A DNA stretch of 44,047 nucleotides from Lachnospiraceae bacterium (GTDB taxonomy: Bacteria; Bacillota; Clostridia; Lachnospirales; Lachnospiraceae), in assembly GCA_017938285.1 (NCBI GenBank), contig JAGBBW010000127.1, positions 1-44,047 on the forward strand, given 5' to 3'. The notes under the pieces are model-generated. The model searched no databases. It saw only the letters and a list, made by a program, of their open reading frames with translations, and was not told where the DNA came from. Below, in pieces: positions 5,373 through 34,861 of the stretch. Both the position numbers and the translations under genes were made by a program. Numbering within the stretch: position 1 is the first letter of the stretch; every line of letters begins with the position of its first letter.

Positions 5373-5426
5373 TTACAGGAAAGCGGCAGCAGAAGTAGAA
5401 GATAAAGATAGAAAAGGAGACAGCGG

Positions 5427-6713: not shown

Positions 6714-6719
6714 ATCAAT

Positions 6720-7526: not shown

Positions 7527-7662
7527 AAAGGCAGTGATGCGGAAAATACAGAAATTATGAAATTTTCCATACAAATTCTTTCGATTTGGTAAAGGATTCA
7601 TGCTTTTATGACGAAAAACTATATAGAGAGTAAAGCGTTATTGAGGAAAAGAGGGACAACTG

Positions 7663-8778
7663 GTGGAAAAGGACATTTTGTTAGGTGGGGAAAAAGAATT
7701 AAGGGAATTAAAAAGTACACTCCAGGAGAAAGAGCGTTATAACAGTGTGATAGATTCCCTGAAAAAGGAAATCGAATCCCAGAAGCAGATGATAGAGTCA
7801 CGTAAAAAGGAAATTGACCAGGAAATTGCAGAAGAGGAGCAGCGGCGCCGGGAAGTTATGGTTAAGCCATATTATGATAAACTGGCAGCATGTGAGAAAG
7901 CAGTACAGAAACTGGGCGAAGAACGGGAAAAGAAGCGGAAGGAACTGATTGAATCAATCAGAAAAGAAGAAGCACTTCGTTTTGAAGAACAGAAGCATGA
8001 GCTGGAAGAACAGGTAAAGCAGATCCGAAGAGAGGAAAATATTCCGCCATTTTGTCTGTCCAGACCGTTTCTTGCTTTTTTCTATCCACGGACCGGTATG
8101 GATGCACTGATTCTTGTGTCTGGAATTGTACTGTTCCTGCTGATACTTCCCATGAGTCTTTATTACGGTATCTATGGCGGGGATAATAAACTGGCCCTGA
8201 CTACCATTTATCTGGTAGCCATTGTATTTTTTTATACGGTGTATCTGCTGATTAATAATCTGGTCAAGGACAAATATCTCGTAGGAATGAAACGTGTTCT
8301 GGAACTCATGGCAGAGCAGGAGAAGCTGGAAATCCGGAAAAAGCAGAGGATGGCAGAACTGGAGCAGATACCGGATGCAGAGCTGGATCTGCACGAATTT
8401 GATGAGCAGGCAGAGCAGATGCGGAGTGAACTGGCAGAGGTAGAAGAATTAAGGGATCTGGCCCTGATTAATTTTGATTCGGATGAGAGAACGAAACTGG
8501 ATATTGCGGCGCAGATACAGCAGCGTTATGCGGTAGAAATGGAACAGATGAGAAACAGTCTTGCGGACAGTATGGCTTCCCTGGAAAATATGAAACAGGA
8601 GTATGAAAAGTTCGTAGAAGATAAAGGACTGAAAGACCGGTATTCTTCCCTGCTTCGTATTGAAAGCGGCATTTTCAACATAAAAGTCATTGATGAACTG
8701 TTGTTTATTTTAAGCAGTGGGGAAGCGGAGAATATCAGCGGTGCCGTCCGCAGAAGAAAGCATAGAATGAATCAGTAA
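7663..8778 (+). CDS. Coiled-coil membrane protein of unknown function
   Basis: 371 residues from a GTG start, supported by GAGGG seven bases upstream. Residues 1-130 are a highly charged Glu/Lys/Arg coiled coil. Two hydrophobic segments (about 147-168 and 178-199) are separated by a short YGGDNK loop. A second coiled coil occupies about 200-325, followed by a small mixed C-terminal region. The topology suggests both coiled coils face the cytoplasm. I do not recognise a family. It is a single-gene unit ended by the terminator at 8783-8828; neighbours give no functional clue. Confidence 0.8.
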   Translation: MEKDILLGGEKELRELKSTLQEKERYNSVIDSLKKEIESQKQMIESRKKEIDQEIAEEEQRRREVMVKPYYDKLAACEKAVQKLGEEREKKRKELIESIRKEEALRFEEQKHELEEQVKQIRREENIPPFCLSRPFLAFFYPRTGMDALILVSGIVLFLLILPMSLYYGIYGGDNKLALTTIYLVAIVFFYTVYLLINNLVKDKYLVGMKRVLELMAEQEKLEIRKKQRMAELEQIPDAELDLHEFDEQAEQMRSELAEVEELRDLALINFDSDERTKLDIAAQIQQRYAVEMEQMRNSLADSMASLENMKQEYEKFVEDKGLKDRYSSLLRIESGIFNIKVIDELLFILSSGEAENISGAVRRRKHRMNQ

Positions 8779-8782
8779 AAAG

Positions 8783-8828
8783 AAAACCAGGAGACTGTAG
8801 CATTAGATTTTTACAGTCTCCTGGTTTT
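8783..8828. terminator. Bidirectional intrinsic terminator
   Basis: 17-bp perfect arms AAAACCAGGAGACTGTA (8783-8799) and TACAGTCTCCTGGTTTT (8812-8828), with A- and T-runs on the outer sides. It serves the coiled-coil gene (plus) and the SGNH gene (minus). Confidence 0.92.
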
Positions 8829-9506
8829 TTAATAAGCCCGGTTTCCCAGTACGTAAGCCAGCGTACTGGCAATCAGAAATGCGCCGGATGCATTTGGGTG
8901 AAGACCGTCTTCCTGATATAAACTGTCCAGTTCTTCTTCATCCAGCTTTAAAAATTCATCATGCAGATCTACCAGCTGGACATGATTGGCTTCAGCCAGT
9001 GCCCGGATGTGGGGAAGAAGCTGCAGGAGATAATGTTCCTGGTGCTTTCGCCAGATACAGTTGCGCACCGGAATCGGAGTTACCAGATAGATCAGTGCAT
9101 TGGGAGCAGCAGATTTCACACCATCAATAATGTACTGGTAAAAAGTTTCAAATAATGGTTCGTAGGAAATCAGATTGTTATATGGGTCCTGAATATCTTC
9201 GGTATCGTGCATGCCGTCCTGGGCATCGTTGGTACCAAGCATAATGATATAAATATCACCTGCTAAGGAGAGAGCTTCGTCATATTCTGGCTGCAGGACA
9301 TAAGGAAGACCACAGGTTCTGCCATCGTCGGCTTCCATCATGGTAACACAGCTGCAGGTGACACCTTCGTTGAATACGGCATAATCTTCTCCAAGAAATT
9401 CCTGCAGAAGGGCAGGGTAATAGACGGACGGATCTTCACCTAAGCCAAATCCCTCCGTAATACTGTCTCCTATGCAGACTACACGTATTTTTGTTCCTAA
9501 TTCCAT
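8829..9506 (-). CDS. SGNH/GDSL-family hydrolase
   Basis: 225 residues from the ATG at 9506, preferred over the ATG 27 bp upstream because AGAGG stands seven bases before it. Block I is CIGDSITEG with nucleophile S15, block III contains GTNDAQD, and block V is DGLHPNASG (catalytic Asp and His). The compact single domain without signal peptide resembles cytosolic acyl-esterase/thioesterase members; substrate unknown. It lies 75 bp downstream of argG, separated by the 9531-9561 hairpin. Confidence 0.88.
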   Translation of the reverse strand: MELGTKIRVVCIGDSITEGFGLGEDPSVYYPALLQEFLGEDYAVFNEGVTCSCVTMMEADDGRTCGLPYVLQPEYDEALSLAGDIYIIMLGTNDAQDGMHDTEDIQDPYNNLISYEPLFETFYQYIIDGVKSAAPNALIYLVTPIPVRNCIWRKHQEHYLLQLLPHIRALAEANHVQLVDLHDEFLKLDEEELDSLYQEDGLHPNASGAFLIASTLAYVLGNRAY

Positions 9507-9530
9507 CGTTGACCTCTTTTGCAAAGATAT

Positions 9531-9561
9531 CAATGACTACCGGACAGTCCGGCAGTCATTG
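9531..9561 (-). terminator. Hairpin between argG and the SGNH gene
   Basis: CAATGACT / AGTCATTG outer arms with an inner CCGGAC / GTCCGG stem, separated by single unpaired bases. It lies after argG on the minus strand but lacks a good T-run, so termination may be partial. Confidence 0.55.
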
Positions 9562-9581
9562 ATGTGTTGTCAGGGGCTGTT

Positions 9582-10799
9582 TTACTTATTGTTTTCTGCC
9601 ATCATCATAGCACGAACCTTTAAGGAAAGGCCGAACAGGTTGATGAAGCCTTCTGCATCGTGGTGGTCATATAAATCACCAGTAGTAAAGGAAGCAATGC
9701 TTTCGTTATATAAGGAGTATGGGGAAGTAGTTCCCTGGTTGATAATGTTGCCCTTGTATAACTTTACCTTAACTTCACCGGTAACGTATTCCTGTGTGGA
9801 CTCAACAAATGCCTGAAGAGCCTCACGCAGTGGTGTGAACCACTTACCTTCGTAAACGATGTCAGCATACTTGTCGCCGATGCCTTTCTTGTAAGCAAGA
9901 GTATCACGGTCTAAAATAAGCTCTTCTAACTGTTCGTGGGCAGCCATTAAGATGCTTCCGCCCGGAGTTTCATAAACACCACGGGACTTCATACCAACGA
10001 CACGGTTTTCTACGATATCAACGATACCAACACCATGCTTGCCGCCAAGAGCGTTTAATTCCTTTAAGATGTCGGAAGCTTTCATCTTTTTGCCGTTTAA
10101 TGCAACCGGAGCACCCTTTTCGAAGGAGAGGGTAATGGTTTCGCCTTCGTCAGGAGCTTTTTCCGGAGAAACACCAAGTACTAATAAGTGGTCATAGTTT
10201 GGTGCGTTAGCAGGATCTTCCAGTTCCAGACCTTCATGGCTGATGTGCCATAAGTTACGGTCACGGCTGTAGCTGTGGCTTGCGTCAAATGGAAGATCGA
10301 TACCATGCTGTTTGCAGTATTCGATTTCGTCTTCACGGGACTGCATCTTCCATGTATCGTTACATCTCCAAGGAGCGATAATCTTTAAATCAGGAGCGAG
10401 AGCCTTGATACCAAGCTCAAAACGTACCTGGTCATTACCCTTGCCGGTAGCACCGTGGCAGATGGCAACAGCGCCTTCCTTGCGGGCAATTTCTACTAAC
10501 TTCTTTGCGATAAGAGGACGTGCCATGGAAGTACCAAGTAAATACTTGTTTTCATAAACGGCACCAGCTTTAACGCAAGGAATTGCGTATTCGTCAACAA
10601 ATTCATCCACTACGTCCAGTATGTACAGCTTTTCAGCACCGGAGTACTTCGCACGTTCTTCCAGACCATCGAGCTCGCTGTCCTGTCCAACGTCGATACA
10701 GCAGCAGATAACATCATAATCGTAGTTTTCCTTTAACCATGGAATAATTGCGGTAGTATCAAGACCACCGGAATATGCAAGAATTACTTTTTCTTTCAT
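9582..10799 (-). CDS. argG: Argininosuccinate synthase
   Basis: 405 residues, the usual length. Catalyses ATP-dependent condensation of citrulline and aspartate, the penultimate step of arginine synthesis. The ATP PP-loop [11 protein letters not shown] begins at residue 8; other signature segments are [15 protein letters not shown] and the [15 protein letters not shown] region. A strong AGGAGGG site stands nine bases upstream. No argH follows in the window. The promoter and a 14-bp element shared with the argC promoter suggest common ArgR control. Confidence 0.97.
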
Positions 10800-16855: not shown

Positions 16856-17293
16856 ATGAAATTTGTAATACAGCGTGTCAACCGCGCCAGTGTTACTGTA
16901 GACGGTAACATGATTGGCGCAATAAAAAAAGGATTTCTTGTGTTTATCGGAGTTTCCAATGAGGATACTAAGGAAATTGCGGACAAGTATATAAAAAAAC
17001 TTCTGGGACTGCGTATTTTCCAGGATGAAAACGGAAAGACCAATCTGTCCTTAAAGGATGTGAATGGGGAACTTCTGCTGGTGTCCCAGTTTACTCTTTA
17101 TGCGGACTGCAGCCATGGCAACCGCCCGTCCTTTACCAGTGCGGGAAAACCGGAACTGGCCAAGGAACTGTACGAATACATTATTGCAGAATGCAAAAAG
17201 CAGGTGGCAGTAGTGGAAACCGGGGAATTTGGTGCGGATATGAAGGTGGCACTGGAAAATGACGGACCATTTACGGTGGTACTGGAACTATAG
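16856..17293 (+). CDS. dtd: D-aminoacyl-tRNA deacylase
   Basis: 145 residues from the ATG at 16856, set by TGGAGG six bases upstream; the longer frame would run through the terminator. Hydrolyses D-aminoacyl-tRNA, removing mischarged D-amino acids. The active-site [17 protein letters not shown] block (SQFTL) and the C-terminal [11 protein letters not shown] (cross-subunit Gly-cisPro; many members read GPVT) are present. It starts only 15 bp after the terminator, so read-through or an undetected promoter supplies it. Confidence 0.95.
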
Positions 17294-17301
17294 CGGAAAA
17301 A

Positions 17302-17351
17302 ACAAGGAGACATAACCATGGCCATTACTGTCCGGGGAAATGTCTCCTTGT
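17302..17351 (+). terminator. Intrinsic terminator after dtd
   Basis: 12-bp arms ACAAGGAGACAT (17302-17313) and ATGTCTCCTTGT (17340-17351), followed by CTTATAAC. It can also close the minus-strand small-peptide transcript. Confidence 0.75.
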
Positions 17352-17385
17352 CTTATAACAAAATCTTTTGTATTTTAACTACTTC

Positions 17386-17514
17386 TTAGTAGCAGTTACC
17401 GCCGAAAAAGCCGCCAAAACCACAGCCGTTGTTGTTTCCGCAAAAACCGCTAAACAGGGAAGATAAGTTGCATCCGTTTAAAAATGGTAATAAGAAATTG
17501 CAAAGATTGCTCAT
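17386..17514 (-). CDS. Small Gly/Asn/Cys-rich peptide, 42 residues
   Basis: The ATG at 17514 has an excellent GGAAAGGAG site seven bases upstream, while the longer in-frame extension has none. The N-terminal part is hydrophobic (NFLLPFLNG); the tail is Gly/Asn/Phe-rich with Cys at positions 5, 15, 25, 31 and 41, nearly decade-spaced. No family is recognised. The composition recalls small spore-coat or envelope peptides; a modified-peptide precursor is possible but no maturation gene is near. A weak promoter candidate, TTGCAT/17/TATCCT, lies upstream on the minus strand. Confidence 0.6.
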   Translation of the reverse strand: MSNLCNFLLPFLNGCNLSSLFSGFCGNNNGCGFGGFFGGNCY

Positions 17515-17623
17515 CTGTGTCTCCTTTCCAAAGTCATGGGAAACCTCTGGAATTCCTATGTCTTTATTTATTTCACTCTTTGGTGATGGACTAAGGATAC
17601 CACAGAAAGAAGGCAGATGCAAT

Positions 17624-17655
17624 GGAACCTGCTGGCAGTGTCACCAGCAGGTTCC
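17624..17655 (-). terminator. Hairpin downstream of the cyclophilin gene
   Basis: 12-bp perfect arms GGAACCTGCTGG (17624-17635) and CCAGCAGGTTCC (17644-17655), 8-base loop, 15 bp after the cyclophilin stop on the minus strand. There is no T-run, so it is a weak terminator or an RNA-stabilising hairpin. Confidence 0.6.
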
Positions 17656-17669
17656 AGAAGAGTAATTAT

Positions 17670-18194
17670 TTAGCGGTCTAAGGTCTTTGGCTCTGCATAT
17701 TCTTCGCCGAATGTCTCAACGGTTACCTTTGCCATACGCTGAACTTCCATCGGACGGTCAGACCAGTCGGTATTGACTTCTGCGATCTTGTTTACTACGT
17801 CCATACCTTCGGTTACCTTACCGAAAGCCGCATACTGTCCATCAAGGTGTGGAGAATCTTTGTGCATAATGAAGAACTGGGAACCGGCGGAATCCGGGTG
17901 CTGTGCTCTTGCCATGGAAATAACGCCTGCGGTGTGCATTAAGTCATTCTTAAAGCCATTCCAGGTAAATTCACCCGGGATGGAGTAACCAGGATTGCCC
18001 GTGCCGGTGCCTTCCGGACAACCGCCCTGAATCATGAAGCCTTCGATAACTCTGTGGAAGATTAAACCGTCATAAAAGCCTTTGTTTACAAGGGAAATGA
18101 AGTTGTTTACAGTGTTTGGTGCGATTTCAGGGTAAAGCTCTACCTTGATAATGTCGCTATTTTCCATCTGAATGGTAACAATAGGATTTGCCAT
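17670..18194 (-). CDS. Cyclophilin-type peptidyl-prolyl cis-trans isomerase
   Basis: 174 residues, single domain, no signal peptide, thus cytoplasmic. The active-site FHRVIEGFMIQGG motif starts near residue 46; SAGSQFFIM and HLDGQYAAFGKVTEGM follow, as in bacterial PpiB-type enzymes. It catalyses proline isomerisation in protein folding. The C-terminal extension after VTVET adds about 14 residues. It is divergent from the MerR-type regulator gene. Confidence 0.95.
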   Translation of the reverse strand: MANPIVTIQMENSDIIKVELYPEIAPNTVNNFISLVNKGFYDGLIFHRVIEGFMIQGGCPEGTGTGNPGYSIPGEFTWNGFKNDLMHTAGVISMARAQHPDSAGSQFFIMHKDSPHLDGQYAAFGKVTEGMDVVNKIAEVNTDWSDRPMEVQRMAKVTVETFGEEYAEPKTLDR

Positions 18195-18338
18195 AATAAA
18201 GTCTCCGTTTCTTTTTATTTTAGAATGAAGGGCATCGAGGGGCTGTTACAAAAGTATCTTTTTGTGAACCCCTGCGGCCCTGCTCCGTGAATGCATTTTA
18301 CCACGATTTTCTAAACTTGTCTACCTGCGGAATATGAC

Positions 18339-18367
18339 TTGCCGTTTTTGGAAAAATCGTTTAAAAT
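18339..18367 (+). promoter_or_regulatory. Promoter of the MerR-family gene
   Basis: -35 TTGCCG (18339-18344), 17-bp spacer, -10 TAAAAT (18362-18367), 26 bp before the start codon. Confidence 0.65.
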
Positions 18368-18393
18368 GGATGGCAGAAAGAAGGGGATATTTT

Positions 18394-19230
18394 ATGAACT
18401 ATAAGGTCAGCGATTTGTCAAAGATTTTAGATATATCGTCCAACACTGTCCGGAGGTATGAGGGCATGGGGTATCTTTCCCCGGACCGTATGGATGCCAA
18501 TGGGTATCGTGTATATGGGGCTGGCGATGTGACGAAGATGATTATTATAAACAATTACCGCAAGCTGGGCTTCAGTCATCCGGAGATTGCCAGGATTCTA
18601 AAGGGCAGCTATCAGGAAAAAATTGCATTGTATGAGGAACGGCTGGCAACCATGGATAAGGAACTGGAGCTATTAACAGGGCTCCGGCATATGTTAAAGG
18701 ACGACCTGGCACTGATGAAAAAAATCGAGGCAGTGCAGGAGGGATTTTACCAGCGGGACTGTGTACCGATGAACTATGTTTTATACAGCGAACAAGGGGA
18801 GCTTTTAAAGGACGATGGCCGTCTGGACACGATTCAGCAATATTTTTACAATGCGGCAGAGTTACGTTATATTTATATTTTCAAGCAAGAGGAAATAGAG
18901 CAGGGACTTCTCACCTGCAATGAAGGAATTGCGGTGAAGGATATCCATATGGAGCGGTTTGGACTGAGACTGAATGAGTACACTACTGTCTATGAAAAGA
19001 AAAACAGTATCATGAAAATTGCCAAGCTTCCGTTGAATTTTTCGGAGTGTAAAGCAGAGGAAAAGGACAAACTGTTTCATGAACTTTTTGACGATATGCT
19101 GGAGTATCTTTTGGAAAATCACTACCAAATGGATGGAGATGTGATTGGCATAAAAATTTCTATGTCGCTGGAGGAGTCTGTGGAGGAACAGTATATTCTG
19201 GTTAGTATGCCGGTGTTGGAGCGTGTTTGA
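18394..19230 (+). CDS. MerR-family transcriptional regulator
   Basis: 278 residues from the ATG at 18394 (AGAAGGGG seven bases upstream). The winged HTH is plain: KVSDLSKILDISSNTVRRYE and GYLSP..NGYRVYG, then a coiled coil at about residues 80-115 (dimerisation). The C-terminal ~150 residues form a putative effector-binding domain ending in YILVSMPVLERV, as in GyrI-like sensor domains. MerR activators bind promoters with 19-bp spacers; just such a promoter with a dyad lies 88 bp downstream of this gene, in front of the giant pectin esterase. I infer that this protein controls that gene, perhaps sensing a sugar or small aromatic compound. Confidence 0.9.
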   Translation: MNYKVSDLSKILDISSNTVRRYEGMGYLSPDRMDANGYRVYGAGDVTKMIIINNYRKLGFSHPEIARILKGSYQEKIALYEERLATMDKELELLTGLRHMLKDDLALMKKIEAVQEGFYQRDCVPMNYVLYSEQGELLKDDGRLDTIQQYFYNAAELRYIYIFKQEEIEQGLLTCNEGIAVKDIHMERFGLRLNEYTTVYEKKNSIMKIAKLPLNFSECKAEEKDKLFHELFDDMLEYLLENHYQMDGDVIGIKISMSLEESVEEQYILVSMPVLERV

Positions 19231-19270
19231 AAATTCATTCCTGCAATCTGCACGTTCTGGAATTGTTCAG

Positions 19271-19300
19271 AATGTAAGCGGAATGTAAGAAAGTTGTAAG
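19271..19300 (+). promoter_or_regulatory. Three direct repeats at 11-bp spacing
   Basis: AATGTAAG at 19271 and 19282 and GTTGTAAG at 19293, so TGTAAG recurs with exactly 5 bp between copies. They lie just upstream of the -35 at 19318. Phased 6+5 repeats of this kind are typical of OmpR/PhoB-family response-regulator sites. Confidence 0.5.
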
Positions 19301-19317
19301 AAAATTTTCGAAACTTC

Positions 19318-19356
19318 TTGACCTTGACATTATGTCATAGTGTATAATTATGACAT
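19318..19356 (+). promoter_or_regulatory. MerR-type promoter of the pectin esterase gene
   Basis: -35 TTGACC (19318-19323), 19-bp spacer, -10 TATAAT (19343-19348). The spacer holds the palindrome TGACATTATGTCA (19325-19337), and a further inverted half-site TATGACAT (19349-19356) pairs with ATGTCATA (19332-19339). Overlong spacer plus dyad is the hallmark of MerR-activated promoters. Confidence 0.65.
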
Positions 19357-19459
19357 ATGGAGAGGTCATTTTTTGTGCTTTTTGTACAAAAACATCGAAA
19401 AGATTTGGTGGATTTGACAGGAGAGAAGAGGCCTCTGCAAGAATGTAACAAAATAAGAA

Positions 19460-19532
19460 GGAAAAACAAGGAGGAAAATCCTCTGCTCGCAAAAAGCGGG
19501 CGAGCATTTTTCCTTCGGAAAAACAAGGAGGA
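19460..19532 (+). promoter_or_regulatory. Leader with duplicated RBS segment and terminator hairpin (possible attenuator)
   Basis: The 16-mer GGAAAAACAAGGAGGA occurs at 19460-19475 and again at 19517-19532, where it is the real ribosome binding site. Between them lies a terminator-like hairpin TGCTCGC/GCGAGCA (19484-19506) followed by TTTTTCC. Both GGAAAAA copies can pair with that TTTTTCC, and GAGGA/TCCTC can fold over the first copy, so mutually exclusive structures are possible. Confidence 0.5.
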
Positions 19533-19537
19533 TTGGC

Positions 19538-22500
19538 ATGAAAAAAAGAGGGTTACGTCGTTTATTAGCTGCAGCCCTGGCTGGTGTCATGGTGCTGACC
19601 GGTTCTGGTTTTGCTTCCACGACCACGGCTTTTGCTGACGATGGACGAAAAATCGATGTCTGGGATTTTGGCGGCGTCGAAGAAACGGACACTGCGCTTT
19701 ACAATAACAATGTAAAAGCAGCAGACTGGGACGCTTATGAAAATCTCAAGGAGGGTGGTACCTTTGCCGCTGACGGAGAAATTGTATTTGGTGATTTAAC
19801 CCTGAATTTTAAGGGAAATGACCGTTTGTTTTCCGGTCTTGCAAAGAAGAATTATGGTGATAATGGCTTTGCCCAGACCGAATATGAGGATGGTTATACG
19901 GCCAATGGTATGTTCTACTGCAATGGTACCGGCGGTGAAAAGAGAAGATATGTACAGCTTGCCAATGTACAGGCTGGTGACAAGATTGTAGTTTATATGG
20001 GTGCCCACAATGCGGCAGATGATACGCTGATTTTCCAGTATCTTGGGGAAGATGCGGTGCAGATGGACGAGCAGGCTTACGGTCAGAAGACCTTCACAAA
20101 GCATGTATTCGTGGCACAGTACAGCGGTACTTATAAAATCTGGACCAATGCCGGGGCAAAGGCCGGTTACAACCGTATTGTCCGGTTCCCGGGTGTGGCA
20201 GTGTCCGGTACCGTGGACAATGGCGGTTTTGATGTAACAGGCACCACGCTTAGTTTTGTGAACAATGAAACTAACGTGGAGACTGTGGTGGAAGTAAAGG
20301 ACGGCAAGTATACCGCAGTTTTAGCTCCGGGCTTTGAATACACCGCAGTATTATCCGGTGTGACAGGTATCGGCTTTACAAACGACAGCAAAATCGTAAC
20401 AGTAGCAGAGGCTGATGTGTTAAAAGGCATGTCTGATGTAACGCTTGTGGTAGAGAAGAAGACCATCTACGATTATACCGGTAAGCTGACCGGATTTGCA
20501 GCAGACTATGATGTTTCCAGACTTGCTGTTAAGTTAGAGGCTCCGGCGGATACCACCTTTAATGATGTAGACCTGACCATTAGTGCGGACTTAAGTTTCA
20601 AGGCTTCCTTGGAGCCTGACGTGGAATATACACTGGTGCTGAATGGAGTAAACGATTATGAAATCGTTAGTGCAGCAACCGTGAAGGATAATCAGGCACT
20701 GAACCAGGACATCACCGTTGCGGCAAAGGCTGTGTATGATGTAACTGGTGGCTTCCTTGGCTGTGAGGCAAAGGATGTAACTGCAGTGAAGTTCGTAAAC
20801 GTGGAAGATAGTTATGAATATGCAGGTGTCGTATCTGCCAATGGTTATTCTGCGAAGTTAAGAAATGGTTCCTACAGTGTAGTGATTACTTCCGAAAAGT
20901 ATACTACTTCTACCCATATTGTTGTGAACAATAAGGCTGTGGAAAAGGACATCATGGCAGTTCCGGCAGCAGCAGAGGCAGTGGCACTGGAAAGAGTGGA
21001 AAAACTTTACGTTGGTTATGAGGACAAGGCTCCAAATTACGCAACCGTAGGAGAAGCAGTGGCTGCGGCAGCCGCCATGAATCCTGCCAGCGAGGAAGAA
21101 AGAATTACAATTTCCATTGCTCCGGGTACTTACAGAGAGCAGGTTACGATTGAAACTCCTTACATTACTCTGGTAAATGAAAGTGAGGAAGAGGTTCTTC
21201 TGACCTGGTACTATGGTATCGGTTACAATTACTATAGTACAGACGATGTTTCCGGTCTGTATGATGCAGAAAGAGCCTATGACAAGTACGAAAAGAACAA
21301 TGCAGAAAAGTGGGGCTATGCGGTTATGGTAACAAAGACCGCTACCGCATTCCGTGCAGAAAATATTGTATTTGAAAACTCCTTCAACCGTTACATCACG
21401 GATGAAGAAATCGAAGACGGTGTAGAAGCAGATACGATCAGCTTTGACCGTAAGTACGGTGTGGATGTTACCTCCAAGGCAGCGACAGAGCGTGCGACAG
21501 CACTCTATGTGGCAGCAGACCAGGCAGAATTCCTGAACTGTTCCTTCTTAAGCAGCCAGGACACTCTGTACACAGCATCGGACAGTTACTTTAAGAACTG
21601 TTACATCGAAGGTAACACCGACTTTATCTTCGGTTCCGGTGATGTGGTATTTGACGCCTGTGAAATCAGCCTGTATGGTTACAGCACAGGTGAAACACAG
21701 GGTTATATCACAGCAGCAAGAACAGATTCTTCTACAACAGCAACAGAGAATGGTTACTTATTCCGTAACTGTGTGGTAACAGCAGATAATCTTCCGGTAA
21801 AGGCTGGCTATTACTTTGGCAGACCGTGGGGGGCAGATGCCAAGGTAAGATTTGAGAATACCAAGGTGGTTTCCTTAGATTTAATCAATGCAGCAGGCTG
21901 GACACAGATGAGCGGAAACCAGCCGGAAAAGGCAAACTTTGCAGAATATAACACAACAGACCTTCTTGGTGCGGCAGCAGATGTTTCTGCAAGAGTAGAA
22001 GGTACCATAAAGACAGAGGCAGCAGCTTTTGATTATGCGGCATACTTAGGCTTTACTCCGGTATATGCTGTGGCAGCAGAGGCAGCCGTAGCTTTCGCAA
22101 CCGCTCCTTATGTTGTGGATAATGGTGATATTAATGCTCCAAAGCCGGGACACACACTGACAGCAGCCTACTCCTTAGGTGCTGCAAATGACGCCAACGA
22201 TGTTTCCGTTATTGCATGGTACAGAGTAAAAGATGGCGCAGAAACCTTAGTGAAGATTTCCTCCGCAGTAGTAGATGATACTTATCAGATTACAAGTGAG
22301 GATACTGGGGCTCAGATTAAGGTAGTTGTAACACCAATGAATGTAAATAACGCAGCTGGTACAGCAGCTTCCTACACCGTAGAAGAAGTGGTTCGTGAAG
22401 GTTATGATAATCCGGCAGCTTCCAAGGCGGAGGCAGTGCTTGGAACAGGAATTAACGTATACCTTGCAGGTGATTCTACCGTAAAAGATTACTCTGCTAA

Positions 22501-25324
22501 GGGTATGTACATGAACAATACGAACAACACCGAAGGCTCCTGGGGTGAATACTTCGCTGAGTTCTTCAATGAAGAGTTAGTAACCGTTGTAAATTATGCA
22601 AACGGTGGCAGAAGTACAAGAAACTTTATTAACGAAGGTTCCCTTGACAAGATTAAGGAAACCATCAAGGAAGGTGACTATCTGTTCATCCAGTTCGGTC
22701 ACAACGACTGCTCCAACGGTTCCGGTTATTTAGAGGACAGATATGTTCCGCTGGGTGAGCCGGATGCCAATGGCGTATATCCGGTAACAGCAGGTAAAGA
22801 GGTTTCCACACCGGATTCCTTACAGTCCAAGTATGGCGATACCTTCTATTCCTACGACTGCGGCGGTACTTATAAGTGGTATCTGTTACAGTACATTAAC
22901 GTGGCAAGAGAAGCAGGCGCAATTCCTGTACTGGTAACTCCTGTAGCAAGACAGTACTTTGACGCAGACGGCAACATTAAGGCAGCACATGATTCCACAG
23001 ACGCTACCACAGGTACACAGGTGACCTCCGGCAATGCGTATGTGACAGCAGTAAAGCAGTTAGCAGAAGAAGAAAATGTATTATTAATTGACGCAACTGA
23101 ACTGACCGCAGTAATGTACGAAGAAGCTTACAAGGCAGATGTGGCAGCAGCAAATGGTGCTTCCGCAGTGGCGAAGCAGGCAATGTGTACTGGTGACAGC
23201 ACACACAGCAGCAAGTTAGGCGGCTTTATCAGCGCAGCATATATGGCGCAGGCAGTTCAGGCAATGGATTGTTCCCTTGCTTATGCGGTGCAGGCACCAG
23301 CCCAGGTAATCGGTGAAAATCCAAATGGAACCAATGAATTTTCTGTAAGCGGCAGTGGCAGATTTACTGCATATTCTGCAAATGCAGAAGGCCTGTTCAC
23401 AGAAGACAGTGCATACTGGACAGTCGTTGGTCAGACCTTAGTAGATGAAATTGCACTGGAGGCAGCAAAGATGAGCGGCTCCTATACCAAATCCACCATG
23501 TGGGTAATCGGTGACTCCACGGTATGTGCTTTCAACGACAGCTATTTCTATCCTCGTTATGGTTATGGTACACAGTTGCTGGAGTACTTTGACGCAGAAA
23601 AGTTTGAGGTTCAGAACCTGGCTCTTTCCGGCAGAAGTTCCTTAAGCTTCTTACAGGAAGAAAACTATAAGACATTAGTGGACGGAATGCAGAAGGGTGA
23701 CGTTCTCGTTATTGGTTTTGGTCATAACGATGAAAAGGCAGAAACTGCAAGATACACCAATCCGAACGGTGATTATACCGTGGCAGGCAGCTTTGCCAAC
23801 AATCTGTATGAAAACTATATTAAAGTGGCAGAGGAAAAAGGCGTAACTGTCATCCTTTGTACACCAATCGTAAGAAGAACTGCAACTGGTGAATGGAAGG
23901 ATTCCGAACTGCATATTACAACAACGACCGGCGAATTCGAAGGTGGTAACTATGCAGAAGCTATTATTCAGCTTGGTAAGGATACAGACACAGCAGTTGT
24001 TGATATGACAGCACTGACCAGGGAAGTATATGATTCCCTCGGCGCAGAAGAGACAGTAAACTTACATGCATGGCTGTCTTCCAAGCCTGGCAGCGTGGAT
24101 AATACACATACCAATATCTGGGGTGCAAAGTACAACGCGTACCTGTTTGCAAAGGCAGTAAAGGCACTGAATATCAGTGGTATTTCCGAGCATGTAACCA
24201 ATGTGGATGCAGCTCCTGCAAAAGCAGATAATCTCGTATCCAATCCGGATTATGTAGAGCCTGTATATGACAGCAGCGCTCTGGCACAGAGTGAGCTCTG
24301 GGCAGATTATGGTATCTTCAAGGGTACAGTATTTGGTGATGTGGGTGGTACACCAAACACAACCAACCAGACTCTGGAAACCGATGCCAACGGCAACATG
24401 CATATTGCGGTAGCAAACAACAAGGGTAAGATTTCCGGCTCTACCGATGGTATTGCCATGTATTATTACAAGATTCCGGCAGATGCAAGCTTCACCTTAT
24501 CTGCGGATATGACAATCAACGCTTACAACAGCAACAACCAGGTTGCCTTTGGTCTGATGGTAAGAGATGCCATGTACATCGACTTTAATTCCAAAGACTT
24601 CAATGGTGACAGCGTGAATGCAGCGTTCTCCAGACTGGCAGATATGGATGCCGGTGTTGCCCTGAACAACAGCTATGCAAGAAAGGATGGCAAGTTAATG
24701 TACGGTCCATCCCTTTCCAGAGCATATACCGCTGGTGAAACAGTGACACTGACCCTTTCCGGTACACCGGATGGTTATGCAACCACTATCGGTAACGAAG
24801 AAACCGTTTCCGGCGGTTTTGACTTCAAGCTGACAAGCTTTGATGAAGATTATGTTTACATTGGTATGTTTGCAGCAAGAAATGCAGACGTAACCTTCAG
24901 TAACATCAAGCTGACAGTAAACGGACAGGAAATTGATGTGATGGATGCAGCGTCCCAGCCATCCTTCCCGGCACCGGAAACAGACAAGGAGAAGGAAGAA
25001 CCGGCACAGGAAGTTCCTGCAATTACAGAAAGCCAGTATACCGTGGCTGCTGGTAATACTCTTGGTGCCATTGCAAAGGCAGCAGGCGTTACCGTGAAGG
25101 AATTAGTTGCTGCAAATGACATCGAGAATGCAGATGTCATCAGCATTGGTCTGGTAGTGAATATTCCTGAAGTGAAGAAGGAAGGCAGATATATCGTAAA
25201 AGCAGGTGATACTTTAAAGAGTATTGCTGAGGCAAACGGATGTACCGTAGCTGACCTGGTGGCACTGAATGGAATTGAAAATCCGGATGTGATTGTAGAG
25301 GGCGAAGTACTTTACGTGAAGTAA
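19538..25324 (+). CDS. Giant secreted LysM-anchored pectin methylesterase / dual SGNH acetylesterase
   Basis: 1928 residues. Signal peptide at 1-33 (cleavage after AFA). Residues about 40-225 form a beta-rich, possibly sugar-binding domain; 225-485 hold three Ig-like repeats. CE8 pectinesterase spans about 490-815: GTYREQV, Q674/D675 (SSQDTLY), D695 (GNTDFIFG), R762/W764 (FGRPWG), with family spacing. An Ig-like module follows. SGNH domain 1 (972-1240): S980 (AGDSTV), N1056 (FGHND), D1220/H1223. SGNH domain 2 (1320-1550): S1327, N1397, D1521/H1524; both resemble CE12 rhamnogalacturonan acetylesterases. About 1575-1795 is a concanavalin-like sandwich, then an acidic linker and two LysM repeats (1833-1878, 1884-1928). 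It would sit on the cell wall and strip methyl and acetyl esters from pectin. Confidence 0.93.
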   Translation: MKKRGLRRLLAAALAGVMVLTGSGFASTTTAFADDGRKIDVWDFGGVEETDTALYNNNVKAADWDAYENLKEGGTFAADGEIVFGDLTLNFKGNDRLFSGLAKKNYGDNGFAQTEYEDGYTANGMFYCNGTGGEKRRYVQLANVQAGDKIVVYMGAHNAADDTLIFQYLGEDAVQMDEQAYGQKTFTKHVFVAQYSGTYKIWTNAGAKAGYNRIVRFPGVAVSGTVDNGGFDVTGTTLSFVNNETNVETVVEVKDGKYTAVLAPGFEYTAVLSGVTGIGFTNDSKIVTVAEADVLKGMSDVTLVVEKKTIYDYTGKLTGFAADYDVSRLAVKLEAPADTTFNDVDLTISADLSFKASLEPDVEYTLVLNGVNDYEIVSAATVKDNQALNQDITVAAKAVYDVTGGFLGCEAKDVTAVKFVNVEDSYEYAGVVSANGYSAKLRNGSYSVVITSEKYTTSTHIVVNNKAVEKDIMAVPAAAEAVALERVEKLYVGYEDKAPNYATVGEAVAAAAAMNPASEEERITISIAPGTYREQVTIETPYITLVNESEEEVLLTWYYGIGYNYYSTDDVSGLYDAERAYDKYEKNNAEKWGYAVMVTKTATAFRAENIVFENSFNRYITDEEIEDGVEADTISFDRKYGVDVTSKAATERATALYVAADQAEFLNCSFLSSQDTLYTASDSYFKNCYIEGNTDFIFGSGDVVFDACEISLYGYSTGETQGYITAARTDSSTTATENGYLFRNCVVTADNLPVKAGYYFGRPWGADAKVRFENTKVVSLDLINAAGWTQMSGNQPEKANFAEYNTTDLLGAAADVSARVEGTIKTEAAAFDYAAYLGFTPVYAVAAEAAVAFATAPYVVDNGDINAPKPGHTLTAAYSLGAANDANDVSVIAWYRVKDGAETLVKISSAVVDDTYQITSEDTGAQIKVVVTPMNVNNAAGTAASYTVEEVVREGYDNPAASKAEAVLGTGINVYLAGDSTVKDYSAKGMYMNNTNNTEGSWGEYFAEFFNEELVTVVNYANGGRSTRNFINEGSLDKIKETIKEGDYLFIQFGHNDCSNGSGYLEDRYVPLGEPDANGVYPVTAGKEVSTPDSLQSKYGDTFYSYDCGGTYKWYLLQYINVAREAGAIPVLVTPVARQYFDADGNIKAAHDSTDATTGTQVTSGNAYVTAVKQLAEEENVLLIDATELTAVMYEEAYKADVAAANGASAVAKQAMCTGDSTHSSKLGGFISAAYMAQAVQAMDCSLAYAVQAPAQVIGENPNGTNEFSVSGSGRFTAYSANAEGLFTEDSAYWTVVGQTLVDEIALEAAKMSGSYTKSTMWVIGDSTVCAFNDSYFYPRYGYGTQLLEYFDAEKFEVQNLALSGRSSLSFLQEENYKTLVDGMQKGDVLVIGFGHNDEKAETARYTNPNGDYTVAGSFANNLYENYIKVAEEKGVTVILCTPIVRRTATGEWKDSELHITTTTGEFEGGNYAEAIIQLGKDTDTAVVDMTALTREVYDSLGAEETVNLHAWLSSKPGSVDNTHTNIWGAKYNAYLFAKAVKALNISGISEHVTNVDAAPAKADNLVSNPDYVEPVYDSSALAQSELWADYGIFKGTVFGDVGGTPNTTNQTLETDANGNMHIAVANNKGKISGSTDGIAMYYYKIPADASFTLSADMTINAYNSNNQVAFGLMVRDAMYIDFNSKDFNGDSVNAAFSRLADMDAGVALNNSYARKDGKLMYGPSLSRAYTAGETVTLTLSGTPDGYATTIGNEETVSGGFDFKLTSFDEDYVYIGMFAARNADVTFSNIKLTVNGQEIDVMDAASQPSFPAPETDKEKEEPAQEVPAITESQYTVAAGNTLGAIAKAAGVTVKELVAANDIENADVISIGLVVNIPEVKKEGRYIVKAGDTLKSIAEANGCTVADLVALNGIENPDVIVEGEVLYVK

Positions 25325-25350
25325 TCCGGGAAAAATGAAATGATAACATA

Positions 25351-25395
25351 AAAACAGGAAGCAGGATTCTGAAAAAGGGTTCTGCTTCCTGTTTT
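25351..25395 (+). terminator. Intrinsic terminator of the pectin esterase gene
   Basis: AAAACAGGAAGCAG (25351-25364) pairs with CTGCTTCCTGTTTT (25382-25395), with a T-run inside the right arm. Confidence 0.9.
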
Positions 25396-25427
25396 AAAAT
25401 TTAGGACTTTATTCGGGAGAAAGAGAG

Positions 25428-25436
25428 TGCTATAAT
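25428..25436 (+). promoter_or_regulatory. Extended -10 promoter of the MATE gene
   Basis: TGCTATAAT (TGn plus TATAAT at 25431-25436); no good -35 at the right distance. It lies 50 bp upstream of the start. Confidence 0.6.
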
Positions 25437-25486
25437 AGCAGCGATGGTATTATGATATTTCGTACACAAAAAGAAAGGCGTTAGTC

Positions 25487-26854
25487 ATGAAAGCAAAACA
25501 AAAAGAAACCATAGGAACGTTGTTTTCCAGTCAGGCATTAAAAAAACTGATTATTCCATTAATCATTGAACAGACTCTGGCGGTTACTGTTGGTATGGCA
25601 GATACGATGATGATAGCTACCAGGGGAGAAGCGGCCATGTCCGGCGTTTCCATTGTGGATTCGATTGCGATTTTAATGATTGGTCTGTTTGGCGCACTGG
25701 CAACCGGCGGCGCAGTGGTGGCAGCACAGTTCATTGGACGGAAGGATTCGGAAAATGCCAGCAAAGCAGCAAACCAGCTGGTAGTTGCCATTGGCAGTGT
25801 GTCGCTGTTTCTGATGGCAGTCGCTTTGATTTTTAACAAACAGATTTTACAGCTGATTTATGGAAAGGTGGAAGCAGATGTCATGGGTTACTCCCGGACT
25901 TATTTTTACATAACGGCAGTGTCCTTCCCTTTTTTAGCATTATATAATGCGGGAGCGGCTCTGTTCCGTGCCATGGGAAATTCCAAGATTTCCATGAAAG
26001 TTTCCCTTGCCATGAATGCAATAAATATTGTGGGAAATGCATTCTTCCTCTTTGTAATGAAGATGAGTGTGGAAGGTGTAGCACTGGCTACCCTGCTTTC
26101 CAGAATTGTAGCAGCGGTAGTTATGCTGCTGCTGATTCGCAGACCATCGAATCCAATTCACATTGATGAACATTTCCGACTTGGGTTTGACTGGAAAATT
26201 ATTAAGAGAATTCTGAATATCGGTGTGCCGAATGGTCTGGAAAACAGCGTGTTCCAGATTGGCAAGCTGATGGTGCAGGGAATTACTGCCAGCTTTGGTA
26301 CCACGGCGATTGCGGCTAATGCAGTGGCAAATACGATTGCCAGCTTTGAGGTAATTCCGGGAAGTGCCATGGGTATGGCAATGATTACCATTGTCGGCCA
26401 GTGCGTGGGTGCAGATGATGAAACACAGATGCGCTATTATACTAAGAAGTTGCTGAAAATCGCAACCGGGGCGATTATTCTGGTAAATGTGGTTGTTATG
26501 CTTGCCCTGGATGGTATTGTTCTGCTCTACAGCCTGGAACCGGGAACAGCAGAGCTGGCAAAACAGCTGATGATTCTGCATGGTCTGTTTGCAATGCTCA
26601 TCTGGCCGTTATCCTTTGTACTGCCGAACGCCCTGCGTGCGGCCAATGATGTGAAGTTTACGATGGTGGCGTCCATGTTTTCCATGTGGACGTTCCGCAT
26701 ACTGTTCAGTTACATTCTGGCGAAGGGCATGAACTTAGGTGTTGTCGGCGTATGGCTGGCCATGTTTATTGACTGGGGCTTCCGGAGTATCTGCTTTGTG
26801 GCAAGGTTCTGGCGGGGAGGCTACCGGAAATATTCTTTTGCAGTGAAAGAATAG
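25487..26854 (+). CDS. MATE family efflux transporter
   Basis: 455 residues, twelve predicted membrane helices in two homologous halves. The N-terminal IIPLIIEQTLAVTVGMADTMM and GGAVVAAQFIGRKD segments, and the second-half repeat IGVPNGLENSVFQIGK with AIAANAVANTIASFE, are typical of the MATE (NorM/DinF-like) family, which exports drugs or metabolites by Na+ or H+ antiport. Substrate unknown. Single gene between the pectin esterase terminator and the hairpin at 26901. Confidence 0.93.
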   Translation: MKAKQKETIGTLFSSQALKKLIIPLIIEQTLAVTVGMADTMMIATRGEAAMSGVSIVDSIAILMIGLFGALATGGAVVAAQFIGRKDSENASKAANQLVVAIGSVSLFLMAVALIFNKQILQLIYGKVEADVMGYSRTYFYITAVSFPFLALYNAGAALFRAMGNSKISMKVSLAMNAINIVGNAFFLFVMKMSVEGVALATLLSRIVAAVVMLLLIRRPSNPIHIDEHFRLGFDWKIIKRILNIGVPNGLENSVFQIGKLMVQGITASFGTTAIAANAVANTIASFEVIPGSAMGMAMITIVGQCVGADDETQMRYYTKKLLKIATGAIILVNVVVMLALDGIVLLYSLEPGTAELAKQLMILHGLFAMLIWPLSFVLPNALRAANDVKFTMVASMFSMWTFRILFSYILAKGMNLGVVGVWLAMFIDWGFRSICFVARFWRGGYRKYSFAVKE

Positions 26855-26864
26855 GAAAAAGTAA

Positions 26865-26893
26865 CTGACAAACCGGCTGAAATATGTTATTAT
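26865..26893 (+). promoter_or_regulatory. Candidate promoter of xpt-pbuX
   Basis: -35 CTGACA (26865-26870), 17-bp spacer, -10 TATTAT (26888-26893). A transcript from here would begin with the hairpin at 26901-26930. A second -10-like TATAAT at 26954-26959 lacks a convincing -35. Confidence 0.5.
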
Positions 26894-26936
26894 ATGAGAT
26901 AAGGGCGGATTAGTAAAAGCTTCCGCCTTTTCATAT
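26892..26936 (+). terminator. Hairpin between the MATE gene and xpt
   Basis: 9-bp stem AAGGGCGGA / TCCGCCTTT (one G-U), extended by outer ATATGA/TCATAT. It may terminate the MATE transcript, or act as a leader attenuator of xpt if the 26865 promoter is used. Confidence 0.65.
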
Positions 26937-26986
26937 TTAAGTAAAAGAAGTACTATAATTCTAAGTAAGCAGTGGAGGAACAGAAT

Positions 26987-27571
26987 ATGAATTTCTTGGA
27001 AGAACGAATTGTAAAAGACGGTGTTGTAAAGCCGGGAAATGTACTGAAAGTAGACAGTTTTTTAAATCACCAGATGGACATTCATCTGATGGACGAAATG
27101 GGAAAAGAGTTTAAGCGTCGTTTCGCAGACAAGAATATTACGAAGATTTTAACCATTGAAGCCTCAGGTATTGCCATCGCGATTGCAGCGGCACGCTATT
27201 TTGATGTGCCGGTGGTGTTTGCCAAAAAGTCCAAGAGTATCAATCTGGATGGGGATGTATATGTGGCAACCGTGGAATCCTTCACACATAAAAATACGAA
27301 TCAGGTCGTTGTGTCGAAAAAATTCTTAAGTGCAGAGGACCATGTGTTAATTATTGATGATTTCCTTGCCAATGGCTGTGCGCTGCAGGGGCTGATTTCT
27401 ATTACGGAATCTTCCGGTGCAACAGTAGAAGGAATCGGTATTGCCATTGAAAAGGGTTTCCAGGTAGGAGGAAAGGTGATTCGCAATCTGGGTTACCATC
27501 TGGAATCCCTGGCAATTGTGGAATCCATGGACGATGAAAAGGGAACGGTGCAGTTCCGGGAGCAGGAGTAA
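26987..27571 (+). CDS. xpt: Xanthine phosphoribosyltransferase
   Basis: 194 residues from the ATG at 26987, with GGAGG seven bases upstream (a GTG 15 bp earlier overlaps that site). Transfers phosphoribose from PRPP to xanthine. The PRPP-binding loop [13 protein letters not shown] is at residues 120-132 and [14 protein letters not shown] is typical of Xpt. It is followed after 6 bp by a purine permease, as in the classic xpt-pbuX salvage operon. Confidence 0.95.
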
Positions 27572-33381: not shown

Positions 33382-34095
33382 ATGAAAATACGATGTGTTT
33401 GGGAACATAACGGAGAAGATACGCTGCTGTATGCAGACAATTTTCCGGGTGCTTTTACGAGAGGAGCGTCAAGAGAGGCTGCCTTAGAGAAAATGCAGAA
33501 GGAGATTACCTCCTACCAGCGATGGGCAGATATGGTGGAAGGGGTTACAGAAAATTTAGAACCGGAAATTATTCAGGAAAAATCCAGCACCTTGGATATC
33601 CGGAACGCTGACTCGGATGTTCTCTTTGACAAAGAAAAAGAACCTTTCACACGGGAGGAGTACCAGTATCTGAAAGCTCTGGTATTAAAGTCTGCCGAAG
33701 ACTTCTTAAAATTATATGAAGCTGTTCAGGACAAAGACAAAAGTGTATTTCCGGTTCGACAGTGCTTTTATGGTGAGGTCCCACGGACTGCCAGAGAAAT
33801 GTATGAGCATACGAAATGTGTAAACAGTTATTATTTTGGTGAGATTGATGTTCCGGCGGACCGGGAAGGAACAATTCTGGAATGCCGTGTCCGGGGCTTT
33901 GCATTGCTGGAGCAGCAGCCGGATTTTCTGGAAAACAAAGTGTTTTTAGGAAGCTATGAGGAGGAATGGAGTCTTAGAAAAGTACTTCGTCGTTTTTTAT
34001 GGCATGACAGAATCCACGCCAGGGCAATGTACCGCATGGCAAAACAGACCTTTGGCGAGGCAAGTGTGCCGGATGTGTTCCGGTTTGAGAAATGA
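33382..34095 (+). CDS. HicB-like domain fused to DinB-like domain
   Basis: 237 residues from the ATG at 33382 (GTGGAG upstream). Residues 1-50 resemble a HicB-type antitoxin fold (DNFPGAFTRGASREAALEKM). Residues about 95-235 look DinB-like: FLKLYEAV, then near the end VLRRFLWHDRIHARAMYRMA, whose histidines could bind metal as in DinB thiol-transferase relatives. No toxin gene is adjacent, so a toxin-antitoxin role is unlikely. Family calls are from motif pattern only. Confidence 0.7.
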   Translation: MKIRCVWEHNGEDTLLYADNFPGAFTRGASREAALEKMQKEITSYQRWADMVEGVTENLEPEIIQEKSSTLDIRNADSDVLFDKEKEPFTREEYQYLKALVLKSAEDFLKLYEAVQDKDKSVFPVRQCFYGEVPRTAREMYEHTKCVNSYYFGEIDVPADREGTILECRVRGFALLEQQPDFLENKVFLGSYEEEWSLRKVLRRFLWHDRIHARAMYRMAKQTFGEASVPDVFRFEK

Positions 34096-34102
34096 GGAAA
34101 AA

Positions 34103-34861
34103 ATGGACGAATATCAGAAACTGTTACATGATTTTATAGCACAAAGCAGGGCAATTTTGAAAGAAAATCTGGTTGGCTTATATCTTCATGGTTCTGCCGC
34201 CATGGGTTGCTTTCATCCAAAGAAAAGTGACATTGATTTGCTTGTCGTAATTAAGGAAAGCATGACAAACGAAAAGAAACGCCAGTATATGGACATGGTA
34301 GTGGAGTTAAATAAAAGAGCACCGGAAAAGGGTATAGAACTCAGCATAGTCAAAGAGGAAGTGTGCAAGCCCTTTGTCTACCCGACCCCGTTTGAACTTC
34401 ACTTTTCCATTACCCATTTACACTGGTATCAGTCCAATCCTGAGGAATATGTGGAGAAAATGAAAGGGACGGATAAAGATTTAGCGGCTCACGTTACAAT
34501 TACATATAACAGAGGACAGGTCCTTTGTGGAAAAGAAATTTCGTCTGTATTTGCAGAGGTCAGCCCGACAGCTTATATGGACAGCATTTGGAGCGATATT
34601 GAGAATGCGGCAGAGGATATTTTGGAAAATCCGGTGTATGTTATTCTGAATTTATGCAGGGTGTTAGCATATAAAAAGGAACGGCTGATTGTATCAAAAC
34701 AGGAAGGTGGGGACTGGGGAATGAAACATATTTCCCAGCCGGAATACAGAGCACTGGTTCTGGCAGCACTAGAGGCATATCAGACGGGAAAAACCATGGT
34801 ATCAGAAGGAATGCCAGCACAGGAGTTTGCGGAATATATGCTGGAGCAAATTAAAAAATAG
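34103..34861 (+). CDS. Aminoglycoside nucleotidyltransferase (AadA/ANT-9 like)
   Basis: 252 residues from the ATG at 34103 (GAGG upstream). The nucleotidyltransferase motif GLYLHGSAAMGCF..KSDIDLLVV has the GS pair at 30-31 and metal-binding D43/D45. The C-terminal helical domain (LCRVLAYKKERLIVSKQEGGDWG) is that of spectinomycin/streptomycin adenylyltransferases. It may confer or descend from aminoglycoside resistance; intrinsic homologues often give little. It starts 7 bp after the DinB-like gene. Confidence 0.85.
   Translation: MDEYQKLLHDFIAQSRAILKENLVGLYLHGSAAMGCFHPKKSDIDLLVVIKESMTNEKKRQYMDMVVELNKRAPEKGIELSIVKEEVCKPFVYPTPFELHFSITHLHWYQSNPEEYVEKMKGTDKDLAAHVTITYNRGQVLCGKEISSVFAEVSPTAYMDSIWSDIENAAEDILENPVYVILNLCRVLAYKKERLIVSKQEGGDWGMKHISQPEYRALVLAALEAYQTGKTMVSEGMPAQEFAEYMLEQIKK

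Follow-up and report, generated by a model that had tools for sequence, protein, structure and literature searches.

The DNA analysed here (the window) comprises positions 1 to 44,047 of contig JAGBBW010000127.1, from assembly GCA_017938285.1 of a gut bacterium of the Lachnospiraceae. It carries a gene for a putative secreted multi-modular pectin esterase, a gene for a MerR-family regulator immediately upstream of it, and between the two a promoter of the MerR type (Table 1). We read this locus, with a probability of about 0.7, as encoding an enzyme that de-esterifies pectin at the cell surface and is switched by a dedicated MerR regulator. The reading starts from results that were computed directly, namely the domain set, the intact catalytic residues, the purifying selection, the linkage of MerR genes to pectin genes and the conserved MerR-type promoter. 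Relatives of the protein were surveyed in 98 homologs and 80 loci of a genome collection, whose genomes (G), contigs (C) and loci (L) are cited by their handles where they must be told apart.

Table 1. Features of the regulator, promoter and esterase gene in the window
Feature	Position	Strand	Basis
MerR-family regulator, 298 residues, probable dedicated activator	18334..19230	+	MerR_1 E 5.8e-12; second possible start at 18394
MerR-type promoter	19318..19348	+	TTGACC 19318-19323, 19-bp spacer, TATAAT 19343-19348
Dyad TGACAttaTGTCA in the spacer, probable (predicted) MerR operator	19325..19337	.	Sequence reading
Secreted multi-modular pectin esterase (putative)	19538..25324	+	Open reading frame with ATG start, 1928 residues
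Signal peptide, residues 1-34	19538..19639	+	Basic start, hydrophobic core, AFA-DD; by eye
N-terminal module, residues 37-218	19646..20191	+	12-row profile match to PDB 8x8h
Beta-type repeat region, residues 219-484 (called Ig-like)	20192..20989	+	Conserved in core relatives
CE8 pectin methylesterase domain, residues 485-842	20990..22063	+	Pfam PF01095; residues; PDB 9mm2
IG_AIR9 domain, residues 848-960	22079..22417	+	Pfam PF23197, E 2.3e-6 (stretch 890-946)
SGNH1, CE12-like, residues 965-1255	22430..23302	+	Pfam Lipase_GDSL_2; PDB matches; SGNH blocks
SGNH2, CE12-like, residues 1312-1556	23471..24205	+	Pfam Lipase_GDSL_2; PDB matches; SGNH blocks
C-terminal module (LAM), residues 1560-1806	24215..24955	+	20 relatives aligned
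Two LysM repeats, residues 1830-1928	25025..25321	+	Pfam PF01476, 78 bits, two stretches

The first-pass annotation, made from the sequence alone, had described a single 1928-residue protein with a CE8 domain, two SGNH domains and two LysM repeats, and all of these are indeed present according to the open reading frame and Pfam. The CE8 domain matches the Pectinesterase family with an E-value of 3.6e-28 (98.6 bits against a cut-off of 27), and over this domain the protein has its closest PDB match, 9mm2 (E 2e-24), which is probably PmeC5. The catalytic Asp, Asp and Arg and the oxyanion Gln are all in place as D675, D695, R762 and Q674; Q674, D695, R762 and W764 are invariant in the 21 aligned CE8 rows, and D675 is kept in 20 of them. 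Purifying selection acts on the CE8 and SGNH domains, as the ratio of nonsynonymous to synonymous substitution rates (dN/dS) between the window gene and its congeneric orthologs in G003 or G002 is 0.06-0.15 where computable (SGNH2 against G003 is saturated), compared with 0.05-0.16 in the other named modules, 0.14-0.21 in the linker that separates SGNH1 from SGNH2 and 0.30 in the LysM repeats. These values are rough because synonymous sites are near saturation.

Both SGNH domains contain the full catalytic set that had been ascribed to them, with Ser, Gly, Asn and Asp-x-x-His blocks at GDST 978, GGRS about 1023, GHND 1054 and DSTH 1220 in SGNH1, and at GDST 1325, SGRS 1364, GHND 1395 and DNTH 1521 in SGNH2. 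Ser, Gly and Asn are kept in all 71 SGNH sequences compared, and the acid (Asp or Glu) and His in 69; the two exceptions are L027, which is cut at a contig end, and L050, whose segment stops near the acid/His block. The proposal that the two domains are distinct also holds: they are 25.8% identical over 252 aligned residues and fall into separate clades of the SGNH tree, which comprises 67 of the 71 sequences (duplicates and one cut sequence, four in all, were left out) and has long branches and unsure deep joins. SGNH1 of the CE8 proteins forms one clade (12 rows, 100/100), and SGNH2 another (6 rows, five fused and one stand-alone, L008; 100/99 at the fork). BLAST labels had hinted that CE12 genes of Bacteroidota are co-orthologs of SGNH1 and SGNH2, an idea that we dropped since the tree separates them, with the same reservation about its deep branches and joins. 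When SGNH2 alone was searched against PDB, it matched YxiM (E 5e-13) and rhamnogalacturonan acetylesterase (E 2.4e-7), and the SGNH1 region matched both as well in the search with the full-length protein. We take these two proteins to be CE12 members, and the similarity to them supports a putative CE12-like assignment for both domains. The best NCBIfam match of the whole protein is the pectin acetylesterase equivalog PaeY (NF041897), yet it scores 101.5 bits against a curated cut-off of 1000; the PemA equivalog (NF041896) scores 69.8 bits against a curated cut-off of 700.

A core made up of the 219-484 region, CE8, the IG_AIR9 region and SGNH1, sometimes preceded by the N-terminal module, recurs among the relatives, both in the family of the window and in another family of the same order. 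SGNH2 and the LAM module are joined to it in the window protein and in G003, G002, G057, L022, G340, G253, G376 and G659; they occur without the core in G011, G298 and G055, and in G069 they accompany another CE8. In G298 two distinct genes (L139 and L140) encode the core and SGNH2-LAM. LAM modules are also found in CE8 proteins of Clostridium sp. DSM 8431 (L035) and in a PL9-type protein (L230), and in L022 (frame 4046-9919) a dockerin splits the module, lying between its two LAM-matching stretches (residues 1605-1947). The Bacteroides loci L087 and L097 encode SGNH-CE8 proteins. The architecture is a new arrangement of known parts, in which SGNH2 and the C-terminal module are an add-on that is also found as a separate protein.

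The non-catalytic modules are less readily assigned. In the window protein the N-terminal module is matched by no Pfam family, but its 12-row profile has a distant match to PDB 8x8h, a pectate disaccharide-lyase (E 2.6e-4), which fits a possible role in pectin binding; the hits of a single-sequence PDB search, a nanobody (E 0.07) and a GTPase (E 0.6), were rejected. As for the Ig-like modules of the first-pass annotation, one is borne out by the IG_AIR9 match, while the 219-484 region has no Pfam match. The concanavalin-like fold it proposed for residues 1560-1806 could not be confirmed: Pfam gave no match to this LAM module in the window protein and, among 20 relatives, only weak ones to single members, and no PDB chain scored better than E 0.76. 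Galectin-10, found with the profile at E 0.76-0.88, was rejected as a chance match, and the single-sequence search gave nothing.

The regulator scores 46 bits with MerR_1 (cut-off 21.6) and 33.1 bits with MerR (cut-off 28.2). All 14 subfamily members match the MerR helix-turn-helix at E-values up to 1, and their C-terminal parts gave no convincing Pfam family and no GyrI-like domain among the 25 of 41 families listed for these members at E-values up to 1; the PDB profile matches likewise span the N-terminal part only. When 11 genomes were compared, full-length homologs of the regulator (E 3.4e-44 or better) were found in five (G000, G002, G003, G055 and G069), each of them adjoining a CE8-SGNH1 gene, and the other matches had E-values of 3e-8 or weaker and were mostly short. 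Among 397 genomes of the family, the regulator occurs in 10 (11 genes, E 8e-34 or better) and the CE8-SGNH1 core in 10 (in G274 it was matched from residue 163 of 771), and the two occur together in eight (hypergeometric P 1.4e-13, ignoring relatedness). A pectin gene is found no more than 1.5 kb away from ten of these 11 MerR genes; the remaining one sits on a contig of 8 kb (G274). The neighbor encodes the core protein in seven cases (the window, G003, G055, G340, G253, G376 and G298), and elsewhere it encodes another CE8 (G384), SGNH2-LAM (G298) or a PL1-CBM77-PL9 protein (G168), so that in G298 the core gene and the SGNH2-LAM gene each have their own MerR gene of the same subfamily.

The linkage extends to the order, where 37 of 392 genomes held a match to the MerR profile at E 1e-30 or better; 30 of these belong to one other family (f11). 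A pectin esterase or lyase gene lies within 1.5 kb of 28 of the 36 distinct subfamily MerR genes in the regions examined, compared with none of 10 control MerR genes; by Pfam, too, the neighbors were free of pectin families at nine of the 10 control loci. In these counts a neighbor is any gene within 1.5 kb, and another reading frame may intervene in G376; two duplicates were dropped, and L144, which also passes the 1e-30 line, was counted as a control. As six of the 36 genes (L103, L101, L108, L109, L022 and L028) had first been found via their pectin gene, we also counted only genes derived from the MerR searches, and a pectin neighbor was present for 10 of 11 in the family and for 16 of 23 in the order, the latter set retaining duplicates and covering 20 regions chosen, mostly from the top, of 49 places listed. 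The MATE gene, whose match follows the pair in the window and G002 but not in G003, is unlikely to be the target of the regulator.

MerR-type promoters contain a palindrome within a spacer of 19-20 bp (PMC1526738, PMC8113463, as given in the parts of these papers available). The promoter upstream of the esterase gene has this form, with a palindrome in its 19-bp spacer and no mismatch to an 18-position template, and it is the sole match in the window at up to three mismatches (0.02 expected). The template fits 10 of 14 MerR-linked promoters with at most one mismatch, while eight pectin genes without MerR have 5-8 mismatches, within the range of shuffled sequences (median 7-8, lowest 3-5). For the 28 MerR genes with a pectin neighbor, a site with at most one mismatch is present in 17 and with at most three in 24, the two MerR genes of L221 sharing one promoter in this count.

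In addition, the window has three other elements around this promoter. A second, larger dyad, TATGTCATA-N9-TATGACATA (19331-19357), overlaps the -10 element and was seen only in the window among the promoters listed. An inverted repeat TTTTTGTGC...GTACAAAAA 3' of the promoter (about 19370-19392), also found in the G003 leader (L101), may be a second regulatory site. Just 5' of the start codon lies a terminator-like hairpin (19484-19512), a possible attenuator, which is not evident in the G003 and G002 leaders. No structured RNA reached the gathering threshold across 17000-27000.

We then scanned whole genomes with the template, which had been fixed after 10 of its later 23 sites had been seen. 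With at most one mismatch, 25 MerR-bearing genomes yielded 23 sites in 20 genomes, including exactly one in the genome of the window, and the reversed pattern yielded none. Nineteen of the 23 sites precede pectin-type genes; of the 13 sites that are independent of the making of the template, nine do. Three of these nine genes (L235, L241 and L255) were reached by the motif alone and encode SGNH domains; in the case of L241 there is a MerR gene some 4 kb away. A shorter motif, scanned at up to one mismatch in 23 genomes (11 with and 12 without full-length MerR), gave 16 sites against two for the reversed control. In the MerR-bearing genomes, 10 of the 13 sites precede pectin genes, and the remainder consists of one before another MerR gene (G340:C4) and two G000 sites inside reading frames; MerR-less genomes contributed three sites, all within reading frames. 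A related motif at up to two mismatches matched twice in 13 control loci (240 kb), and one of these matches falls at a promoter, that of a weaker MerR gene (L147). Among the 23 template sites, one without mismatch lies directly before a GH95 gene with MerR nearby (L240/L232, G599:C41).

Taking these results together with family assignments and with established MerR biology, we infer the enzyme activities, the wall attachment, the binding and activation by MerR, and its ligand. The protein would be secreted and held at the surface by its LysM repeats, and its N-terminal module and LAM may serve to hold pectin. Judging from family and catalytic residues, CE8 would remove methyl esters from pectin, and SGNH1 and SGNH2 would remove acetyl groups. 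The de-esterified chain would then be cut by other enzymes, namely GH28, or PL9 and PL1 where present; GH28 was found in all 11 genomes checked, PL9-type in 10 and PL1 in seven. As in known MerR systems, the regulator would bind the spacer dyad and keep the long-spacer promoter weak until ligand binding made it distort the DNA so that RNA polymerase could start. The ligand is probably released from pectin, and from the nature of the targets we would guess a breakdown product. More generally, we consider it reasonably probable that this MerR subfamily, whose effector domain is unassigned, senses a pectin-derived small molecule and, acting through the conserved spacer operator TGACAnnnTGTCA, activates surface pectin esterases and some lyases in two or more families of a single order.

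Several observations weigh against this reading and have to be set beside the alternatives that they favor. Residue 652 is Arg, in a column with Arg in 11 and Gln in 10 of the 21 CE8 rows, and a Gln at the equivalent position helps form the anion hole in classical pectin methylesterases. The complete CE8 site of the first-pass annotation therefore stands for the five residues Q674, D675, D695, R762 and W764, exactly in place, but not for this second Gln position. R652 looks like a subgroup trait because PmeC5 of Butyrivibrio has a reported Gln/Arg exchange (Gln153 of 2NTP, Arg206; PMC12109409, in the part available), which we take to be at the same position. Furthermore, neither PL1 nor PL9 was found in the genome of the window, which is 86.7% complete. 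The SGNH domains might act mainly on other acetylated plant polymers such as xylan, making the protein a general plant-wall esterase, as sequence is a poor guide to SGNH specificity and SGNH1 and SGNH2 differ strongly. However, among solved structures SGNH2 comes closest to YxiM and rhamnogalacturonan acetylesterase, the best NCBIfam match is PaeY, though far under its cut-off, and SGNH is fused with CE8 in most relatives examined; we regard such a general role as unlikely. A release of the protein into the medium, LysM failing to hold it at the wall, seems to us just as improbable. The LysM repeats, clear in the window protein (cut-off 20.9 bits) and present also in the G003 ortholog, are the least conserved module in the comparison with G003 and are absent from the G002 ortholog, which instead has a lipobox (MAGC) start and a Pro/Thr-rich stretch; hence the LysM repeats, the anchor of the first-pass annotation, are found here and in G003 but are not conserved. 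No anchor is evident at either protein end in L109, L028, L023, L024 and L026, and the stand-alone SGNH2-LAM of G011 has no evident signal peptide. On the other hand, other relatives have a C-terminal PKTGD followed by a membrane segment and a basic tail (G253), a C-terminal membrane segment with basic residues (G340 with VATGD, G376 without such a motif), VKTGD-type tails (both G298 proteins) or a dockerin (L022, residues 1687-1738); the proteins of G057 and G088 contain Big_2 and Cu_amine_oxidN1 domains, respectively. Because orthologs carry lipobox, sortase-like tails or dockerin in this way, surface retention itself appears to be selected, LysM being one of several means.

The regulator might also be merely a long-standing neighbor by vertical descent that regulates something else. 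Full-length MerR is present in only five of the 11 genomes, it is absent at the core loci L102 (G057), L104 (G088), L023, L024 and L026, and G237 has the core without any MerR match; since such loci exist, the MerR switch is common but not universal. For eight of the 36 subfamily MerR genes the nearest 1.5 kb on either side hold no pectin gene, and despite their MerR genes L140, L109 and L028 fit the template with four mismatches and L022 with seven. Moreover, two template sites precede a gene that we presume to encode a ZIP-like transporter, and one precedes another MerR gene. Against mere co-inheritance, the pairs occur in both same-strand and divergent order while the rest of the neighborhood is not conserved, the subfamily adjoins different pectin genes (those of G168, G298 and G384 above), and the motif stands upstream of the pectin gene itself and picks out additional SGNH genes. 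This makes an unrelated regulator very doubtful, less likely than either alternative for the enzyme, and we retain a dedicated MerR switch as the preferred reading. The MerR of L140 is 24-26% identical to that of the window, and its 19-bp spacer holds a different dyad, CTCCCatattGGGAG, as if protein and operator had changed together. At L242 (G547:C23) and L243 (G468:C30) the motif lies between a subfamily MerR gene and the ZIP-like transporter gene, which may reflect a metal link or a second target.

Published systems resemble parts of this locus, as far as the available portions of the reports describe them. PmeC5 of Butyrivibrio fibrisolvens D1 (PMC12109409) is likewise a large secreted multidomain CE8 protein (2089 residues) of a rumen Lachnospiraceae member and probably shares the exchange at R652; it has a glucan-binding region and differs in having a PL9 domain, and SGNH or LysM are not mentioned in the part of that report seen. 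The CE12-CE8 protein of polysaccharide utilization locus 49 of Bacteroides xylanisolvens (PMC4769552), which the L087 and L097 proteins resemble, also combines methylesterase and CE12 in one chain, but it has two domains in reverse order and belongs to a classical locus with a hybrid two-component regulator. Ruminococcus flavefaciens FD-1 has CE12-CBM13-Doc-CBM35-CE12 and CE8-PL1-Doc proteins (PMC2930009), that is, two CE12 domains, or CE8 and a partner, in one surface-retained chain; here, however, CE8 and CE12 are on separate proteins, and retention is by dockerin rather than LysM. Since multidomain pectin esterases are thus known, the enzyme is a new combination rather than a new kind, and the literature search is consistent with the earlier statement that this exact architecture has not been characterised, though close cousins have been published. 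On the regulatory side, BmrR and EcmrR (PMC8113463) share the MerR-type N-terminal domain and a 19-bp spacer promoter with a dyad, but their known targets are drug responses rather than pectin enzymes, and the C-terminal domain of the regulator here is unassigned. Cphy2742 of Clostridium phytofermentans (PMC5171806), also of the Lachnospiraceae, is a proposed regulator of pectin genes including PL9, but it is a LacI/GalR protein with a cre-like operator and is proposed to act as a repressor at or downstream of the start site.

We found no pectin gene cluster around the esterase gene within the window, whose neighboring genes are those of arginine biosynthesis, a tRNA deacylase, a cyclophilin, MerR, MATE and xanthine genes. 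A GH28 polygalacturonase-type gene with an N-terminal fn3 domain lies 16 kb upstream (1724-3283, +), and a second GH28 gene is on contig C107 of the same genome. The window also contains a 490-residue frame with a weak GH35 match below the cut-off (92-1564, +), a small stand-alone GDSL/SGNH hydrolase gene (8829-9533, -) and a gene for a nucleotidyltransferase of the aminoglycoside adenylyltransferase family (AadA_C; 33956-34861, +).

The MerR regulator and its operator are the most novel part of the locus, and both had been missed by the first-pass annotation, as had the N-terminal module. The MerR class is known mainly for responses to metals, drugs and redox stress, and no published MerR-controlled pectinase regulon was among the literature matches listed, which covered few subscription papers and preprints. 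The recurrence of a MerR gene and a matching DNA switch near pectin genes suggests an undescribed way of sensing pectin, which, if true, would be a plant-polysaccharide regulon run by MerR. Such a switch, with its precise operator, would differ from the LacI-type pectin regulator proposed in another Lachnospiraceae member and could yield a pectin-responsive promoter for gut Firmicutes; its motif has already led to additional SGNH genes. As a dietary fibre pectin is common, and the methyl groups released from it feed methanol to rumen methanogens (PMC10530356, in the part available). That one conserved catalytic core carries such varied retention devices suggests that selection favors de-esterification that stays at the cell.

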